This document shows, in pieces, positions 8,525 to 16,351 of a stretch of 38,508 nt of DNA; position 1 is the first letter of the stretch; the number at the start of each line of letters is the position of its first letter. Under the pieces are notes generated by a model. The model was not told the DNA's origin and made no database searches. It saw nothing but the letters and a program-made list of their open reading frames with translations. A program made the translations under genes and the position numbers. Source of the DNA: Halanaerobiaceae bacterium (GTDB lineage: Bacteria > Bacillota > Halanaerobiia > Halanaerobiales > DTU029); NCBI GenBank assembly GCA_012518635.1, contig JAAYRT010000102.1, forward strand, positions 1 to 38,508, read 5' to 3'.

Positions 8525-9664
8525 TTACAGAAGTTCCTTTATATTTTCCATATCAATTACCTCAATCAACAACTTTTCTCTTATAATTTCCGGTATATTA
8601 TCAAGCAACCTATCCCTGATTTTAAAAGAATCATCTTCATCGGCCCTATGGACCAGCAGTAATATACTCCCCTCATTCCAGAGACAGAAAATGTCCCCCT
8701 CCCGCAGTTTTTTACGGCAGATATGGAATAAATATTGCTTAATCTCATTGAGTAAACTGGCCCTGATTTCAATATGTATCAGAGAGAAATATTCCTTATA
8801 TCTCTTGCTTCTTTTCAGGGCCAATTTATATAATAAAATAAATAGTTCCCGGTTACAGAAAAATGGCCCACTGGAGATGCTTCTATAACCCGGACTGCCT
8901 GGAATAAATAATTTACTATTCCCTTCAAAAAGGATGTTAAATTTCTGCCCGGGTTCCAGGCCAAACTCCTGGCCGATATGCCTGGAATATTCCTGATAAT
9001 ACCTGGTTGCTTCAAGGGTTCGGCCCGATTCCATTAAGAGTCTTATCAAAAGATAATAAATTTCTTCATTATATAGCTGATATTTTAAACTCCTCTTACA
9101 TACTTCAATGGCTTCCTTGTAATTATTTCTTTTAGCCAGTATTTTACCGGTATTTATAACCAGCTGTGCATAGATATCCTGATAATATTCACGGATGCTC
9201 ATGGTCCAATCCTCATAAATATCATCTATGAGGAAATGATCTTTATAAAGTGCCAGGGCCTCCCTATATTTTTCCAGGGCTTCATCTACTTTCTCAACTT
9301 CCAGAATAAGGCCCTCCTGATATAGAGCTTCCAACTGCTGGCAATCAATACTTTTTATCTTGGTTTTATCTAAATAATAATATCCCTGACTGTAATTGAT
9401 AAACATTTCCCTGCAGTTATTGGTGTATTCCCTCAATTTCCTTCTAATAAAGGAAATTGCTGCATGCAGATTAGATATTTCACAATCCCCCGGCCAGAAA
9501 AGCTCCAATAAAAAATCCCTGGAAAACTTTTTTCCTGAATAAAAAGCCAGATATTTCAATAGATTCAAGGCCTTTTTTGACAACCAGCTGTCTATGTCAA
9601 CGGACCGGCCATTAACTTTCAGGGAAAAAGTCCCCAGGAAAACAAACTCAAATACAGAAGGCAT
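8525..9664 (-). CDS. SARP/BTAD-family transcriptional activator with degenerate GGDEF-like C-terminus
   Basis: This 379-aa protein starts at the ATG at 9664 (GGGAGGGTGGGATA upstream); a longer frame from 9685 lacks a ribosome binding site. Residues 3-100 form an OmpR-like winged helix (FLGTFSLKVNGRSV...LLELFWPGD...LHAAISFIRRKLR). Residues 105-245 are a TPR-like bacterial transcriptional activator domain (EALEKYREALALYKDHFL, EAIEVCKRSLKYQLYNEEIYYLL). The C-terminal 110 residues contain LREGDIFCLWNEGSILLLV, which aligns by eye with the LRxxDxxxRxGGDEFxxLL core of diguanylate cyclases but lacks the catalytic GGDEF. SARP-family proteins bind direct repeats next to -10 elements. It is the last gene of the secretin locus and its likely regulator (inference). 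Confidence 0.82.
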   Translation of the reverse strand: MPSVFEFVFLGTFSLKVNGRSVDIDSWLSKKALNLLKYLAFYSGKKFSRDFLLELFWPGDCEISNLHAAISFIRRKLREYTNNCREMFINYSQGYYYLDKTKIKSIDCQQLEALYQEGLILEVEKVDEALEKYREALALYKDHFLIDDIYEDWTMSIREYYQDIYAQLVINTGKILAKRNNYKEAIEVCKRSLKYQLYNEEIYYLLIRLLMESGRTLEATRYYQEYSRHIGQEFGLEPGQKFNILFEGNSKLFIPGSPGYRSISSGPFFCNRELFILLYKLALKRSKRYKEYFSLIHIEIRASLLNEIKQYLFHICRKKLREGDIFCLWNEGSILLLVHRADEDDSFKIRDRLLDNIPEIIREKLLIEVIDMENIKELL

Positions 9665-9776
9665 TATCCCACCCTCCCAGTTCATATTAAGGGCCTATTA
9701 CTATATTCTTTTAAACCTGCTGTTTTCCTTCATTTATTCCATTTTTTTCTGTAAGAGTGGGGTTAGTCTGCCAACC

Positions 9777-11309
9777 TTATTCTATAAATACTCTATAGGT
9801 AGCTATTTGAATACTGTCATTTTCATCCTTAACCTCTATCAGGGCCTCATACTCTCCCCTTTCCAGCTTCTTTTTTAAATTCCCTTTATAGAGGGCCTCC
9901 CCGCCGGGAAACAAAATTCCTCCAATCAAATCTGCAGAGTCCAGCTCTATCTCTTCCATGAGTTCTTCTTTATTATTCCATAAAGTCAATTTTACAGCAG
10001 GTTTCAAATGGACCTGCCCTGTATTTTTGACAGGCAGAAAAAACTTTTGCTCCCCTTCATTATTAAACTCAAAGCCTTTTATCTTTATCTCCTGGCTGCT
10101 ATCTTCGCCAACAAGACAACAGACCGGTATAAACTGTTCATCCAGAAGATTTAACATGGACTCATCCTGAAAGACCTTTAAATTTACCAGGGCATAATAG
10201 CCGCCCCTTTCTACATTTAATGGCAGCTGCAGGATATTTAATAACTTCCTGGACTGACGGGGCATCAGAACCAGCCTTTCATCTGCATATAACCTCAACC
10301 AGGGTAAAAGGGAATTATTATCTTCCCCTATTTCCAGCAGTTCTGTTTTTATATAAACCCTTTCCCGGGAAATATTTGTAATTTCAATGGTTTCAGTAAG
10401 CCTCTGGCCTGGTTCAAGCCTGAAATCAATCATCTCCGGCTTAATGCTGAGAAATTCATTTAAAGCCCTGGCCGGTTCCTTAAATTGGCCTGGCAAAATA
10501 TCTATATTATCAATAAAAGATGCCTTGCCCCTTTCTCCATAACTCATCACAGCCCTCAATTCATAGTTTCCGGGAAATAAATAATTCTCCGGTTTACCAA
10601 GGAATAAAACCTCTGAACCGGGATAAAGTCTGGTCAAATCCCGATTATTCTTCACCCCGGAAATAGTCCGCAGGGTCACCCGTTCCACCAGGCTGCGGTT
10701 TTCATCCCTGATGGTCACCTCTACTCCTGCCAGATAATCCAGTCGTGAAGTGTTTTCTACCCCGGCAATAATCAATGGTTCTCCATTCTCATCCTTATCC
10801 AGCCGGAGAAAATTTATTCTGCCCCTTTCCCTCAGGACCGGACCATCTACCCTGACAATCAGGCGCACGGCATATCTGACCAGTAAAGAGATTCCATCAC
10901 CTGCTTTGCCAGGTTCCGGTTCGACCATCAATATTATGATATAGGAACCGGGCTGGGTGCCGAAGGGAACCCTGATACTGCCTTTCAAATACACCTCTCC
11001 CTCACCCGGGACCTGAACACTGTTTTCTTCCAGCTCTATCCAGCCCATCTCCGGAAAGGAACCCTGATCTGCGAGCCTATAACCTAGATTACCTGTATAA
11101 TCCTGGTAGCACTGATAGATGGATATGGCAACATTCTCTGCTATACCAGAAGAACTGAATATTAATTGAAAATCCTCTGTTTCCCCTGGACTCATTGAAA
11201 AATCCAGGGTTAAGGGTTGTACACCTATAGCCTTCACAGTAAAACTGAATAATATCATTAATGAAAAAGATAATATTATGGCGGATAAATACTTCAATAA
11301 TCTGTACAA
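9777..11309 (-). CDS. exported protein with tandem Ig-like domains (chaperone/NEW/DUF916-like)
   Basis: This 510-aa protein starts at TTG (11309), eight bases after AAGGAGG. A signal peptide spans about 1-27 (FTVKA). No C-terminal membrane anchor or LPXTG motif is seen. Two beta-rich modules each open with the pattern LxFxMxPGETEDFQLIFxxSG or IDFRLEPGQRLTETIEITNIS (about 33-150 and 285-390). This pattern is known from NEW/COG1470, DUF916 and PapD-like Ig folds. A further Ig-like segment (about 430-510) has VKNTGQVHLKPAVKLTLWN. The fold suggests a periplasmic or surface scaffold, perhaps a chaperone for the three small exported proteins encoded just upstream. No enzymatic motif is visible, and the exact family is unrecognised. 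Confidence 0.7.
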   Translation of the reverse strand: MYRLLKYLSAIILSFSLMILFSFTVKAIGVQPLTLDFSMSPGETEDFQLIFSSSGIAENVAISIYQCYQDYTGNLGYRLADQGSFPEMGWIELEENSVQVPGEGEVYLKGSIRVPFGTQPGSYIIILMVEPEPGKAGDGISLLVRYAVRLIVRVDGPVLRERGRINFLRLDKDENGEPLIIAGVENTSRLDYLAGVEVTIRDENRSLVERVTLRTISGVKNNRDLTRLYPGSEVLFLGKPENYLFPGNYELRAVMSYGERGKASFIDNIDILPGQFKEPARALNEFLSIKPEMIDFRLEPGQRLTETIEITNISRERVYIKTELLEIGEDNNSLLPWLRLYADERLVLMPRQSRKLLNILQLPLNVERGGYYALVNLKVFQDESMLNLLDEQFIPVCCLVGEDSSQEIKIKGFEFNNEGEQKFFLPVKNTGQVHLKPAVKLTLWNNKEELMEEIELDSADLIGGILFPGGEALYKGNLKKKLERGEYEALIEVKDENDSIQIATYRVFIE

Positions 11310-11347
11310 AAGCCTTCCCTCCTTAACCGATTATATAATAATCAATC

Positions 11348-11372
11348 GGCTGCCGGAAAATATCCGGCAGCC
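11348..11372 (-). terminator. intra-operon hairpin, possible attenuator
   Basis: A perfect 9-bp GC-rich stem (GGCTGCCGG at 11348-11356 with CCGGCAGCC at 11364-11372) has a 7-base loop. It lies between the genes at 11384 and 11309. The sequence after it on the minus strand is AT-rich but has no solid T-run, so partial termination or 3'-end protection is more likely than full termination. Confidence 0.6.
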
Positions 11373-11383
11373 AGACCAGACAA

Positions 11384-12124
11384 TCAGGAATCTGCTGAAA
11401 CAGTCAACCTTATTTCACCGACATAATCTCCCGCTTTGACAGCAGAGATATTCTCTCTCACTCCTGCAAAACCAAAGACCTGGAAGGCATAGACACCCTT
11501 TTCATTGATACCGGTATAAACCTGGCTGCTTTCCACCTTTTCAGGTGTCGGCCAGATCATTCCGGTAACAAGGTCTACGATTAAATCAAGCCATTCCGGC
11601 CTAATATCAAAATCCGGTCCTCTTGGAATATCTGAGCTGTCCCCAAAATACCCGATTTCCTGTACTGGAATTAATTGCAATGGTGATATCGGCGGTAAAA
11701 AGGGTATCCGTGGAAAGCTGATAGGTATATCATTGACCCCGAGAGATCTAAAGGCCCAATAGGTTGTAGGTAGTGTGGTTGAACCATCCAGGTGAGTCAA
11801 GGGTGTACCTTCAAAGATAATATTTACCGGACAATTTGTTTCCACCAGAAAACAATTGGAATCCTGTATCCGGCTTTTCTGATCAGGATTACCGGAAAAA
11901 TGGCCAAAACTCATTTCCGGTTCTACTTCAAACCATTCATCCTCCAGGGGTATCAACCAGTATCCCTTTGTAGTTTCAAACATCAATTTCTGGGGTATAA
12001 CTGCAGCATAGGGGCCTACATTGGCAATTACCTCAATCTCATCCATGAAATTCTGGTTATTGGCAAAACTCAGCAAAGACAATAGGAGCAGGAACAGGGA
12101 TGCAAGGATAATAGATCTTTTCAA
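11384..12124 (-). CDS. exported subunit-like protein, related to its two upstream neighbours
   Basis: This 246-aa protein begins at TTG (12124), with AAGGAGG 11-12 bases upstream. It has a signal peptide (about 1-21). It shares with the 171-aa neighbour an early VIANVGPYAAVI block, a middle FLVETNCPVNIIFEG block and the C-terminal AGDYVGEIRLTVSA. Between these lies a proline-rich insert (about 130-200, with ISFPRIPFLPPISPLQLIP). The C-terminal strand resembles the last strand of spore-coat-U/fimbrial-type domains. I infer a minor or tip subunit of a surface structure; the family itself is not recognised. Confidence 0.65.
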   Translation of the reverse strand: MKRSIILASLFLLLLSLLSFANNQNFMDEIEVIANVGPYAAVIPQKLMFETTKGYWLIPLEDEWFEVEPEMSFGHFSGNPDQKSRIQDSNCFLVETNCPVNIIFEGTPLTHLDGSTTLPTTYWAFRSLGVNDIPISFPRIPFLPPISPLQLIPVQEIGYFGDSSDIPRGPDFDIRPEWLDLIVDLVTGMIWPTPEKVESSQVYTGINEKGVYAFQVFGFAGVRENISAVKAGDYVGEIRLTVSADS

Positions 12125-12147
12125 GCTTCAGTACACCTCCTTTTATA

Positions 12148-12663
12148 TTAATCTGCCGCAGCTACTGTTAAATAAATGGTAGAGCTATATTCTCCTGCTG
12201 ACTGGTCGGAGATATTACCCAATGTAGCAGCAACAGCAATGTTATACCTGACTACACCATCAAGATAGTCCTGTACATTCCTGATTACAAAATCATCACC
12301 ATTCTCTCTTTCTGTCCTGTAGTTCAAAAGGGATTCTGGATTTCCCTCTTTAAATAATTCGTAGTCCACTGCTATAAAATCCCTGCCATTTGTCAGGGCA
12401 TCTGCTTTGAAGGATAAATCGATTAAACAATTAGATTCCACTGTAAAGATATTATCATCATCCTGGGCGACCTCTCCTGCAGCTCCCATCAGGGTCAGGT
12501 TTACAGCAGTATTACCAACCAGTATCTCTGCATATTTACCGACAGAAGCCGATACTGGAATCTCCGCCTTTATATTACCCAGACGACCCTCAGCAGCAAA
12601 GGAAAGAAGACTGACACTGACAAATACACTAATAAGTAAAACAGTAAGGAAAAATCTCTTCAT
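12148..12663 (-). CDS. exported fimbrillin-like subunit (candidate major subunit)
   Basis: This 171-aa protein has a signal peptide (about 1-23, ending LSFAA) and an all-beta mature part. Key blocks are PVSASVGKYAEILVG, FTVESNCLIDLSFKADALT and the C-terminal SAGEYSSTIYLTVAA. The last block resembles the final strand of SCPU/sigma-fimbria subunits (AGxYxDTxxVTV). The ATG has GGAGGG upstream. It is the smallest of three related exported proteins here and has a 100-base leader with a hairpin, which would fit a strongly expressed major subunit (inference). Confidence 0.68.
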   Translation of the reverse strand: MKRFFLTVLLISVFVSVSLLSFAAEGRLGNIKAEIPVSASVGKYAEILVGNTAVNLTLMGAAGEVAQDDDNIFTVESNCLIDLSFKADALTNGRDFIAVDYELFKEGNPESLLNYRTERENGDDFVIRNVQDYLDGVVRYNIAVAATLGNISDQSAGEYSSTIYLTVAAAD

Positions 12664-12694
12664 AAAAAACTCCCTCCATTTTAAGTTTTTCTTT

Positions 12695-12712
12695 GCCTGG
12701 CAACCACCAGGC
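12695..12712 (-). other. 5'-leader hairpin of the subunit gene
   Basis: A 6-bp stem (GCCTGG/CCAGGC) with a 6-base loop lies about 30 bases upstream of the ATG at 12663. The sequence after it is A-rich, so it is not a terminator. It could be a processing or stability element in the 12664-12764 gap. Confidence 0.4.
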
Positions 12713-12764
12713 CTACAAAACTATAAAATATCTTTCAACCCTCCATAGCTCACCCCCTTTTTTC

Positions 12765-13589
12765 TCATTCTAGAGCAAAAACTAATTCTGCACCTGTATA
12801 CTCCCCAGCCTTAAGAGAAAGGCTGGCATCCATAAAAAGATGTATGAGGAAACTTTCCCTCTTATTCCTGTTTCCAGTACAGATATTTATACCTTCATTC
12901 CTGAAGGGCACTGCCTCAGAGCCATCAACTGATATTAGAAATTTTTCTACAGGTATTGCCGGTACTTTCTGTACCCCTGCCTGAACAGGGGACAGGGACC
13001 CCATATAGGCCTTTAAGGACCAGTCCTCATAGTTTGTCCTGACCTCCACTGTAAAGGCTTCCTCCCTATATCTCCCCGGACCGGAATCAATATTAAAATG
13101 GATATTCTTTTTATGGACAATTATTTCTGCCAGTTCCGGATGAAAAATTTCCAGATTGATTACCGGATTAATCCCTGGATCCCTATCCGGTCTTAAAATT
13201 ACCGGATAATAAGAACTGGTATAGGATAAATCCTCTACAAATCTCACAACAAGAACTCTTTCTCTCCGCTGGTGGGTTAGATCTATATTAATTTTCCTGA
13301 AAGATTGCAAAACATCTGTCCCCTGTAATAATACTTCAGGAGCTTCCCTGCTGCCTGGGGACAGGCTGTAGGTAACCCGGTGCTGTTCTACACCTTCTTT
13401 CAGCCTGAATCTTATTAAAGCCTCCCTGTCATCAGGCCTGGAATAAAATATACTTACCTGCCAGATATGGTTTTCATAGGTCCAGCCAGGCCTGTAATTA
13501 TCAAGATTGAATTCACCGGCATTTACTATATAAACAGCCAATATTAAGAGGATAAACATGCTGAGTAAAATCTTTTTCAGTGGAATCAC
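12765..13589 (-). CDS. exported beta-rich subunit-like protein
   Basis: This protein of up to 274 aa has a signal peptide (about 1-24, AVYIVNAG). The GTG at 13589 sits only one base after AAGGA; an in-frame CTG at 13580 or ATG at 13559 are alternatives, so the start is uncertain. The C-terminal half carries EEAFTVEVRTNYEDWSLKA and ends LKAGEYTGAELVFALE. These match the FTVE...LSFKA and AGEYSSTIYLTV blocks of the two downstream exported proteins. An extra N-terminal domain (about 25-140) distinguishes it. A tip adhesin or adaptor subunit is possible; no known family was identified. Confidence 0.65.
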   Translation of the reverse strand: MIPLKKILLSMFILLILAVYIVNAGEFNLDNYRPGWTYENHIWQVSIFYSRPDDREALIRFRLKEGVEQHRVTYSLSPGSREAPEVLLQGTDVLQSFRKINIDLTHQRRERVLVVRFVEDLSYTSSYYPVILRPDRDPGINPVINLEIFHPELAEIIVHKKNIHFNIDSGPGRYREEAFTVEVRTNYEDWSLKAYMGSLSPVQAGVQKVPAIPVEKFLISVDGSEAVPFRNEGINICTGNRNKRESFLIHLFMDASLSLKAGEYTGAELVFALE

Positions 13590-13604
13590 ATCCTTGATAG
13601 AGGA

Positions 13605-14870
13605 TTATCTATTATATAATAAACCCAGATACCAGGCTTCCTCTTTCCAGGCTACAGACAGGCCCAGGCCAGGAGTAAAAACATAATTTACCTTTAAGGT
13701 ACTGCTTATCTCTTCATTCCAGCAGCTGCCCTGATAACTTAATGTAAAGACTCCCTTCGTATAGGAAAATAAAACCTCTGTTAAAGGCTGCTGTCCTTCA
13801 TAATCATCAAGGGTAATCACCAGGGGATAAAAGGAAACCTGGCATTTAAGATCAGCTGAATAATTCATACTGTCAATCAGGCCCAACATTAGATAGGCTT
13901 CCTTTTTCTTCTGGACCAGGACTGAAGCCAGCAATTCAGTGCTGGTCGTAAATCCTTTATCAAATCTCAACTGATAACCAGGAGTATCATCAATATCAAG
14001 AAGTGAAAGATTAACTCTCTCCATTCCCCTGGCCCTCTCCAACTCTATTATTCCTCCCCTGGATCCCATATAAAAGGCAAACTGATTTTCTATCTCGATA
14101 CATTTATCCAGGGAAAATAATTGGTTTAAACCCCTAATATTGTTCATGACCAGGATAGATGATGTTTCTTTATCTATTCCCGGAAATAATCTCCTTGCCT
14201 CAATGAATAGGGCAAAGTACCTGTAATGTTCCTCACCCTTACCCTCCTGGTATAGCTTTATGAAGGCTACAGGTTCTGTACCAGTTCGGGAAAGCCAGAC
14301 AGCAGTTTCGACACTGGCCCTGGTTCCAGACTCATCTTTATATTCAAGTTTAAGATCTGTATATATCCTTTCATCACTACTGGACAAATCCATAGGAGTA
14401 AGGGAAATACGGAAATATGCAGGGGTTTCTCTTTTTCTGTCATTAATGAGGATATTATTTATGCTGATTATCCCTTCCTTATGAGGTACCGTTATCAGCC
14501 AGGAATCATACTCATTTTTGATAAGCCTCTTTTCTTCTTTATTCCCCAGTTCCAGTAGAAGCCCGGGCCAGATGCTGCGGATTACCTGCTGATCAGCAAG
14601 CAGTTGCCAACCCCCTGTTTCAGGTTCAGCTTCCCTGGCCAGTTTAAATTCCAACTCCTGCACTATTTGCCAGGATAATTCCTCCATCTTTAAGAGATAA
14701 AGGACCATTGGTGAATCAACCGGATAACTCTCGATTTCCCAGACAGGTTTGAGCAGCTCAATAGCTGCCTCCTTCGAAATGGCTATTTCTTCTGCCATTA
14801 CTTCCCCCTTAAATATCAGGGAGCCAGTAAGGAACAAAACAAGCAAAAAGATAAGTCTAATCCGCTTCAT
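13605..14870 (-). CDS. exported protein of unknown family, possible outer-membrane component
   Basis: This 421-aa protein is read from the ATG at 14870, with GGTAGGAG upstream (a TTG at 14882 abuts that site). It has a signal peptide (about 1-22). The mature part begins with a helical stretch (about 25-95) and continues with alternating hydrophobic/polar strands. The last 120 residues (YQLRFDKGFTTSTELLASV ... LGLSVAWKEEAWYLGLLYNR) look like antiparallel strands with aromatic girdles, as in outer-membrane barrels. The last residue is R rather than the usual aromatic. It begins 15 bases after the secretin stop, so the two are surely co-transcribed. It may be a partner of the secretin (inference). 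Confidence 0.6.
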   Translation of the reverse strand: MKRIRLIFLLVLFLTGSLIFKGEVMAEEIAISKEAAIELLKPVWEIESYPVDSPMVLYLLKMEELSWQIVQELEFKLAREAEPETGGWQLLADQQVIRSIWPGLLLELGNKEEKRLIKNEYDSWLITVPHKEGIISINNILINDRKRETPAYFRISLTPMDLSSSDERIYTDLKLEYKDESGTRASVETAVWLSRTGTEPVAFIKLYQEGKGEEHYRYFALFIEARRLFPGIDKETSSILVMNNIRGLNQLFSLDKCIEIENQFAFYMGSRGGIIELERARGMERVNLSLLDIDDTPGYQLRFDKGFTTSTELLASVLVQKKKEAYLMLGLIDSMNYSADLKCQVSFYPLVITLDDYEGQQPLTEVLFSYTKGVFTLSYQGSCWNEEISSTLKVNYVFTPGLGLSVAWKEEAWYLGLLYNR

Positions 14871-14885
14871 GCCGGGTATCAACTC

Positions 14886-16052
14886 CTACCTGATAACAGG
14901 CGTTACAAAGACCAGTAATTCTCTTTCATTTTCTTCTTTATTTTCATTTCTGAACAGCCACCTGACCAGCGGGATGTCACCCAGCAACGGTACCTTTCTG
15001 GTAGAGTCAGAATCCCTCTTCGTAGTCATACCAGCCAGGCAGACGGTTTCTCCATTCCTTATCTGCAGGCTTGTTGTCAATGAATTTTCCTTAACAAGTA
15101 AATCCGGACTGACATCATTGATAAAATGGCTGATGACAGGGGACAATTCCAGATAAACCTGGTCTTCCCCGATTATTCTGGCATAGACCTCCAGCTCTAT
15201 CCCCACCTTTACTTCTTCCGTCCTGGTACTGCCATAGCTCTCATTATGAATCAAAAGCACCTGTTCTTCTCCTATAAAAAATCTGGCAGAACCCCCGTCA
15301 CTGACCAGGATATAAGGATTTGCTTCAATGGAAGCCTGCTGTTTTTCTTCCATTAATTTAAGTTGGGTAAGCAGATAGCCGTAAAAATCTGTTTCAATAC
15401 TTAACAACCTGTCTCTGCCACTATAAACAATACTTCTATCTACATTCTCCCCGCTTTCAAATTGCAGAAAGGCTATCCCCAGTTCACTGACTTTTTTTGA
15501 ATCCACTTCGGTAACCAGTAATCTAATCTCAACCTGTCTCCTGGGGATATCTATCTGCCTTATAAATTCCTTTATCCTCTGCAAGTCCTTTGGAGCCGCA
15601 TTTATTGTTAATATATTACCCTCCCTCTCTCCCTTTACATAATTACTTAAAAAAGAGGGAAGAAGGTTAAATACTTCTTTGACAGTAATGTTTTTCAGCT
15701 GGATAACCTCCAGCTCACTTAATTCACTGAAACTGACATTCCTGGGGTCTGCTAAGCCCACTAAATAATAATCATCTATCTTCCTGAAGGTAAAGCCTCC
15801 GGAGGATAATATCATGGCCAGGGCCTTTTCCAGGGGTACATCCTTCAGGTCAACTGTAATTACTCCACTGACAGTCTGATCACTGATTATATTTATACCG
15901 GTCTGGATTGATAATTCATGGATGGCATCCCTCAGATCAGTTTCATAAAAAATAGCATTTACTGTAAGGTCTTCTCCGCCTTTCACAGGGGTAAAGGCAA
16001 CAGGCAGTAGCATGAAAATTATTATAAACCGGACGATCCCAGAATACTTCAT
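14886..16052 (-). CDS. minimal secretin (outer-membrane channel, GspD/PilQ family)
   Basis: This 388-aa protein starts at the ATG at 16052 (GGAAGGGAG six bases upstream). It has a signal peptide (about 1-25). An STN/N0 domain spans about 28-100 (FYETDLRDAIHELSIQTGINI...VPLEKALAMILSSGGFTFRK). One secretin N-repeat spans about 112-172 (VIQLKNITVKEVFNLLPSFL). The secretin domain spans about 175-388 and has the signature VPLLGDIPLVRWLF at 354-367 and ELLVFVTPVI at the end. Secretins form large outer-membrane pores for type II/III secretion, type IV pili or filamentous phage. This one has a single N-repeat and no pilus ATPase, platform protein or prepilin genes nearby, so its partners are the exported proteins downstream. 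Confidence 0.92.
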   Translation of the reverse strand: MKYSGIVRFIIIFMLLPVAFTPVKGGEDLTVNAIFYETDLRDAIHELSIQTGINIISDQTVSGVITVDLKDVPLEKALAMILSSGGFTFRKIDDYYLVGLADPRNVSFSELSELEVIQLKNITVKEVFNLLPSFLSNYVKGEREGNILTINAAPKDLQRIKEFIRQIDIPRRQVEIRLLVTEVDSKKVSELGIAFLQFESGENVDRSIVYSGRDRLLSIETDFYGYLLTQLKLMEEKQQASIEANPYILVSDGGSARFFIGEEQVLLIHNESYGSTRTEEVKVGIELEVYARIIGEDQVYLELSPVISHFINDVSPDLLVKENSLTTSLQIRNGETVCLAGMTTKRDSDSTRKVPLLGDIPLVRWLFRNENKEENERELLVFVTPVIR

Positions 16053-16083
16053 AAGTATCTCCCTTCCTGTAGCAGACATCTTC

Positions 16084-16126
16084 TGAGAAGATTATAGGCT
16101 GGCCTTCTAAAAATATTCTAAAAATA
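16084..16126 (-). promoter_or_regulatory. activator-type promoter of the secretin locus with 11-bp tandem repeat
   Basis: On the minus strand, two exact tandem copies of TATTTTTAGAA (16116-16126 and 16105-16115) are followed by an 8-base GC-rich spacer (16097-16104) and a perfect -10 TATAAT (16091-16096). The -35 position holds no consensus hexamer. The -10 is about 39 bases upstream of the secretin ATG. An 11-bp repeat ending 8 bp before the -10 is the established layout of SARP-activated promoters. Confidence 0.72.
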
Positions 16127-16299: not shown

Positions 16300-16331
16300 C
16301 AAAAAAAGCCCGGGATTTAAAATCCCGGGCT
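16300..16331 (-). terminator. main terminator of the glycolytic operon
   Basis: A perfect 11-bp stem (AGCCCGGGATT at 16307-16317 with AATCCCGGGCT at 16321-16331), a 3-base loop and a seven-T run on the minus strand lie about 20 bases after the eno stop. Confidence 0.93.
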
Positions 16332-16351
16332 TTCTATTCTTTATGGATTTA

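Follow-up and report, generated by a model that had tools for sequence, protein, structure and literature searches.

The 38,508-nucleotide stretch analysed here (the window; contig JAAYRT010000102.1 of the Halanaerobiaceae bacterium assembly GCA_012518635.1) contains seven consecutive minus-strand open reading frames (ORFs) at 8525–16079, and these encode, in the direction of transcription, a short secretin (SEC), a second secretin-related protein (p425), three exported subunit-like proteins (p274, s171 and s246), an exported immunoglobulin (Ig)-like protein (Ig510) and a SARP-type regulator. It is close to certain that they form a real and conserved module associated with the outer membrane, and we think it likely, with a probability of roughly 60%, that in these diderm Bacillota the locus is a self-contained system for a pilin-type surface fibre (or fibrous coat) that exports and assembles its own subunits. 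The host genome, in which the locus lies on contig C37, is a 1.48-Mb metagenome-assembled genome (MAG) that is 72.65% complete; it encodes Omp85, and its order, the Halanaerobiales, possesses an outer membrane (PMC5007114).

Several patterns of conservation emerge. First, a search with SEC of 61 relatives gave a sharp break, with 15 genomes at E ≤ 3.5e-58 and all other secretins beginning at 3.3e-41, and a profile search among the 59 genomes of the class found a full-length or broken full-length Ig510 in exactly the same 15 (a chance of about 2.5e-14, if the genomes were independent). Secondly, in a survey of 399 genomes of the phylum, Ig510 was present in 40, the module-type SEC in 39 and both in 38, and all 40 Ig510 genomes fall within the 102 that encode the outer-membrane assembly factor Omp85, the only genomes in which module genes were seen; the nominal P values are 1.4e-49 and 2e-27 respectively, and ignore common descent. 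Thirdly, of 58 non-redundant loci with SEC, 55 have Ig510 nearby (in two of the other three the flank is missing or the contig soon ends), p425 is the gene immediately after SEC in 42, or in 44 with the inclusion of two long p425 proteins whose scores are higher as secretins, and a SARP homologue adjoins the module in at least 19. The gap between SEC and p425 has a median of 8.5 nt across the loci, and in the window the p425 ORF opens 3 nt past the end of SEC. The initial annotation had placed seven same-direction genes here as one locus and had suggested examining their co-occurrence in other diderm firmicutes; the gene set and its belonging together are borne out, with the exported genes accompanying the secretin in relatives.

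The complete gene order is kept in two genomes of the same genus and in one more of the family, in which the secretin lies at a contig end; elsewhere the module families lie at different chromosomal positions and are arranged differently, for instance as subunit–Ig510–SEC–p425. Because the reading frames and neighbourhoods are conserved in dozens of genomes, the locus is not a chance set of ORFs. Carriers, identified in a genome-collection scan with nine rows of the Ig510 alignment, include the cultured Halanaerobium kushneri, H. saccharolyticum and Halanaerobacter jeridensis, as well as many MAGs of Limnochordia or unclassified Bacillota, and several genomes have multiple copies, with four in G031 and three in G047. 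We note that the window's own genome contains a partial second copy that ends with its contig (L151:3-4095; G000:C62), with a p425, subunits of 298 and 168 residues and an Ig510.

The components of the presumed outer-membrane exit are two related proteins. SEC contains a signal peptide, an STN/N0 domain (PF07660, 3.8e-07), one Secretin_N domain (PF03958, 7.9e-08) and a secretin core (PF00263, 1.3e-34), and has an orthologue family (A3) of 20 sequences; homologues back the ATG at 16052 and hence the 388-residue minimal secretin of the initial annotation. p425 had been described as a 421-residue exported protein with a strand-rich C-terminus; this description is corrected here, and its identity as a hybrid of a degenerate secretin and a predicted 12-stranded outer-membrane β-barrel is well supported by the profile comparisons and structural model. 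In profile-profile comparisons its N-terminal ~170–185 residues match the SEC core (92.5%, E 4.8e-7; with hhalign and more sequences, 96.2%, E 2.2e-9). Orthologues of about 560 residues in Limnochordia-type genomes retain a recognisable STN domain, which in L062 reaches 1.3e-8 and passes the Pfam cut-off. Of four such long proteins, three are nearer to the SEC of the module than to any other type of secretin (103 against 42, 82 against 37 and 79 against 44 bits), and the last is nearly tied (57 against 52 bits). The simplest reading of these sequence relationships is that SEC was duplicated, with a barrel being added and N0/N1 being lost in the Halanaerobiia. An AlphaFold2 model of p425 built from a 28-sequence alignment (mean pLDDT 77) places 12 antiparallel strands in residues 265–424, mostly at values above 90, and a Foldseek search of the PDB returned outer-membrane porins at all of the lowest E-values; among compact matches, two 12-stranded proteins stand out, KdgM (3.9 Å, TM over target 0.67) and NanC (TM over target 0.58). 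Most p425 orthologues end in a terminal F, although that of the window terminates in NR. Because p425 is a degenerate secretin with a barrel, the exit is probably a pair of SEC and p425 rather than the secretin alone, as had been proposed.

The three small exported proteins were noted earlier to share sequence blocks, and profiles confirm this relationship provided that the N-termini with their signal peptides are trimmed, as untrimmed profiles drifted to unrelated exported proteins (e.g. L044_2). The trimmed, iterated profile from s171 recovers s246 at 8e-28 and p274 at 1.4e-8, the profile of p274 itself finds s171 at 1.1e-10, and direct comparison of s246 with s171 gives 2e-06. The earlier likening of these proteins to SCPU/fimbrial subunits also stands, in that the family profile finds CsuE in the PDB at 1.1e-5 and the F1 antigen less strongly at 1e-3, and an AlphaFold2 model of s171 (pLDDT 89) matches CfaB, a Pyrodictium cannula protein, the PapG pilin domain, CsuA/B, FimG and Caf1, with modest TM-scores of about 0.35–0.45 over the query, signal peptide included. 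By profile and predicted fold, then, the small proteins are Ig-like subunits of the chaperone-usher pilin type, and not unrelated enzymes or lipoproteins. Across the family an N-terminal segment alternates between hydrophobic and polar residues (0.79, compared to 0.63 in shuffles), and there is a C-terminal 'AGxYxxTIxxTVS' strand. Residues 31–41 of s171 (IKAEIPVSASV) form no strand in the monomer model, as expected of a donor strand but not proof of one, and are a candidate for that role. Counterparts of p274 with 269–312 residues occur in many loci, and p274 is possibly a tip or adaptor subunit. A WxL-domain identity was considered for the subunits and rejected, with no WxL Pfam match in 31 subunits and no tryptophan in s171.

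The subunits vary widely between loci, with one to four of about 150–310 residues at each, and in several loci separate small subunits are found at varied positions. Such variation would suit a set of cargo proteins, and an improbable alternative is that the locus performs minimal secretin-dependent secretion of single Ig-like adhesins, released or displayed without a polymeric fibre, with Ig510 keeping the cargo soluble and SEC and p425 as the exit. However, the shared pilin-type fold is typical of subunits that polymerise, as are the C-terminal strand and the alternation in the N-terminal segment.

Ig510 is, on the basis of its family-wide matches, an exported and soluble relative of WxLIP (DUF916/DUF3324) with several Ig domains. 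The first WxLIP domain (WxLIP_PGBD, PF06030) is matched in 12 of 20 members (best 9.8e-6) and the second (PF11797) in four of the 20, and the profile matches EfmWxLIP1 in the PDB at 8.3e-8. The matches are to WxLIP/fn3-type models and not to PapD models, and so of the PapD/NEW/DUF916 Ig folds suggested by the initial annotation the DUF916 type is retained while similarity to PapD was not found by sequence. No C-terminal transmembrane (TM) helix is present in any of the 20 members (within the final 70 residues, the most hydrophobic 19-residue stretch averages 0.17–1.44 in hydropathy), which fits a soluble periplasmic partner, and Ig510 is presumed to be a chaperone-like partner of the subunits. 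In monoderm Bacillota, WxLIP has been proposed to bind and stabilise WxL proteins via an inserted strand (PMC10599100). The matched WxLIP domain is also named as a 'peptidoglycan binding domain' in that account, and the module could instead be an envelope tether or coat in which Ig510 is held on peptidoglycan, as proposed for WxLIP, and SEC and p425 fix it to the outer membrane. We regard this as less probable again than the secretion of single adhesins, because Ig510 lacks the C-terminal TM helix of WxLIP, a tether has no need of a pore-forming secretin, and the patchy distribution (40 of the 102 Omp85-positive genomes) is unlike that of an essential tether.

The machinery with which secretins usually operate is not evident. 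The locus encodes no ATPase, platform protein or prepilin, 57 of the 58 loci have no prepilin motif within 9 kb of SEC, and no GspE/PilB-type ATPase scored above cut-off in the window's genome, an incomplete MAG. The absences of prepilins and of a classical usher reported earlier both hold, the usher domain PF00577 being missing from all 59 genomes of the class, including the window's, with a positive E. coli control. It is very unlikely that SEC instead belongs to a machine whose other genes lie elsewhere, be it for type IV pili, type II secretion or DNA uptake, with the exported genes as accessories. Among the named secretin models SEC does score best on PilQ and GspD, but under the NCBIfam cut-offs for PilQ, GspD and SctC; the same genome has a second, separate and longer secretin; and the distribution of SEC follows that of Ig510 rather than that of type IV pilus genes, quite apart from the scarcity of prepilin motifs. 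The 58th locus, L159, is the one place where pilin and type IV pilus-like genes adjoin the module, on the other strand. There, at L159:982-7723, genes resembling PilT, PilC, PilM, pilin and PilD (as read from the sequence) lie beside a diverged copy.

SEC is the size of pIV, the export protein of filamentous phages, and matches phrog_1012 (protein IV) at 3.7e-44, and SEC itself possibly originated from an inovirus. That the locus is simply a domesticated pIV gene with unrelated neighbours is, in contrast, the least credible of the explanations considered here: the closest phage match is 22–25% identical, no further PHROG match occurs in the locus, and the neighbours are conserved with SEC across the phylum. 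This conservation refutes the chance association of the neighbours.

We return to the assembly of a pilin-type fibre or coat, the components of which suggest a pathway in which the fibres, the donor-strand assembly, the SEC–p425 complex and the export of subunits through the secretin are inferred from homology. The subunits would cross the inner membrane by Sec and then be held by Ig510, which may lend a strand or cover the subunit groove, as proposed for WxLIP with WxL and as PapD-type chaperones do for pilins. SEC would build a ring in the outer membrane, and p425 could dock on it via the secretin-like domain, with the barrel lying beside or inside the ring as an anchor, gate or assembly platform. 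Subunits would leave through SEC and join outside the cell by donor-strand exchange, with the alternating N-terminal segment as the donor and p274 perhaps serving as the tip or adaptor; exchange outside the cell would account for there being no need of an ATPase.

A number of observations weigh against this interpretation, in addition to the neglect of common descent in the co-occurrence probabilities. The monomer model of s171 falls short of proof that a strand is missing, and the likeness of Ig510 to WxLIP could signal wall binding instead of chaperoning. The incompleteness of the MAG, together with its second secretin, leaves room for ATPase or pilus genes elsewhere in the genome, and pilus-like genes neighbour the module at L159. 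Finally, about eleven diverged loci keep SEC and a longer Ig protein (about 550–600 residues) but have no recognisable p425; the gene following SEC encodes some other exported protein, often ending in F and without a Pfam match, and subunits are hard to detect and match only weakly. These post-SEC proteins align poorly with the p425 barrel, and our guess is that the diverged loci could be a variant whose barrel is a protein of its own. In five of the loci (L155, L157, L158, L161 and L165) the post-SEC protein is exported, has about 300 residues and no Pfam match, and contains an 'NPAA' motif reminiscent of FadL/PorV-type barrels.

Comparison with known systems shows partial likeness to several. 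The archaic and alternative chaperone-usher pili (Csu, CFA/I, F1/Caf) share small exported Ig-like subunits of pilin fold, a periplasmic Ig partner, a possible two-part tip-like subunit (here p274) and the lack of an ATPase in the locus, but they have an usher where the module has a secretin and a pseudo-secretin/barrel, and their Ig partner is a two-domain PapD-type protein of 230 residues rather than a WxLIP-like one of about 510. The GspD, PilQ and SctC secretins of type II secretion, type IV pili and type III secretion have the domains found in SEC, which is, however, short and without their associated ATPase, platform protein or prepilin. Filamentous phage pIV agrees with SEC in size and domain order, and its secretin complex functions in phage with no dedicated secretion ATPase of its own, but there is only low identity, there are no phage genes, and the duplicated secretin-barrel p425 lies alongside. 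KdgM and NanC resemble the predicted p425 barrel, which differs in being joined to a secretin-derived domain. The WxL/WxLIP clusters of Lactobacillales and Bacillales (PMC10599100) combine a DUF916/DUF3324-type Ig protein with several small exported β proteins; here the hosts are diderm, a secretin and p425 are added, Ig510 is without the terminal helix, and the tryptophan-free s171 and its relatives give no WxL-domain match.

In agreement with the initial annotation, we found no named system of this composition, and no description of a secretin with WxL/DUF916, or with chaperone-usher components in Firmicutes, in a literature search that covered few subscription papers. The known settings of secretins are ATP-driven machines (type II and III secretion, type IV pili) and filamentous phage, whereas pilins with the chaperone-usher fold are known from usher pathways. 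We tentatively propose, at odds a little short of even, that the module represents a new class of outer-membrane assembly pathway in diderm Bacillota, in which pilin-type subunits with a WxLIP-like chaperone are polymerised through a secretin and its duplicated secretin-barrel hybrid in place of an usher. If true, the pairing of a secretin with pilins, and of the secretin with a copy of itself welded to a barrel, would be a novel way for folded subunits to pass the outer membrane. Cultured carriers are listed above. The module may also be a link between diderm pilus systems and the WxL surface systems found in monoderm Bacillota. Halanaerobiia and Limnochordia are diderm Bacillota used in the debate on the outer membrane of the ancestor of the phylum (PMC5007114, PMC11456536), and because the module resides in such hosts while Ig510 is related to monoderm WxLIP, it offers a test case for the fate of outer-membrane systems upon membrane loss.

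Table 1. Features of the secretin–pilin module and adjoining sequences in the window.
Feature	Position	Strand	Basis or remarks
SEC, short secretin, presumed outer-membrane ring	14886..16079	-	397 aa; 388 aa from ATG at 16052
p425, degenerate secretin plus predicted 12-stranded barrel	13605..14882	-	425 aa; 421 from ATG at 14870
p425 residues ~59-235, secretin-core-like domain without N0/N1	14178..14708	-	hhalign alignment
p425 residues ~265-424, predicted outer-membrane barrel, 12 antiparallel strands	13611..14090	-	AlphaFold2, Foldseek
p274, exported, 274 aa, C-terminal part related to small subunits	12765..13589	-	iterated profiles
s171, single-domain exported pilin-like subunit, 171 aa	12148..12663	-	profile, AlphaFold2, Foldseek
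s246, larger exported pilin-like subunit, 246 aa	11384..12124	-	relation to s171
Ig510, periplasmic multi-Ig protein, WxLIP type, 510 aa	9777..11309	-	Pfam, PDB profile matches
SARP/BTAD-type transcriptional regulator, 386 aa	8525..9685	-	Pfam BTAD, Trans_reg_C
Terminator-like hairpin after eno, 13 pairs	16305..16333		sequence
Terminator-like hairpin between s246 and Ig510, 11 pairs (8 GC)	11347..11373	-	sequence

The positions of the module genes and of two terminator-like hairpins are given in Table 1. As single sequences p425, p274, s171, s246 and Ig510 have no significant Pfam match, and NCBIfam and PHROG scans of these five gave nothing usable; their families were characterised through family-wide alignments. 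The seventh gene was correctly recognised at the outset as a SARP-type regulator (BTAD 4.2e-15, Trans_reg_C 4.5e-07), and is probably dedicated to controlling expression of the module. The hairpin between s246 and Ig510, judged from its sequence, could reduce the expression of Ig510 and the regulator relative to the subunits. The locus is flanked by eno/gpmI on one side and HD-domain/rnr genes on the other, with about 270 nt and the 13-pair hairpin setting eno apart from the module; two genomes of the same genus retain this setting, another genome of the family retains part of it, and a SecG-like ORF occupies the left border of the locus in relatives.

A second, different candidate fibre locus occurs in Halanaerobiia (L044:7518-11382, L152:6299-11166, L153:4733-8490 and L154:3780-9297), with a 270–285-residue relative of Ig510 beside an exported protein of 880–1100 residues that has CarboxypepD_reg/SdrD_B domains, and with small exported proteins. 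The long protein has, in one case, very weak CooC_C and PelB-barrel matches, and the locus is possibly an usher-like system outside PF00577. Large exported proteins adjoin two copies of the secretin module, a Pfam-confirmed S8 subtilase at L049:7431-10274 and a subtilase-like protein at L052:655-3216.

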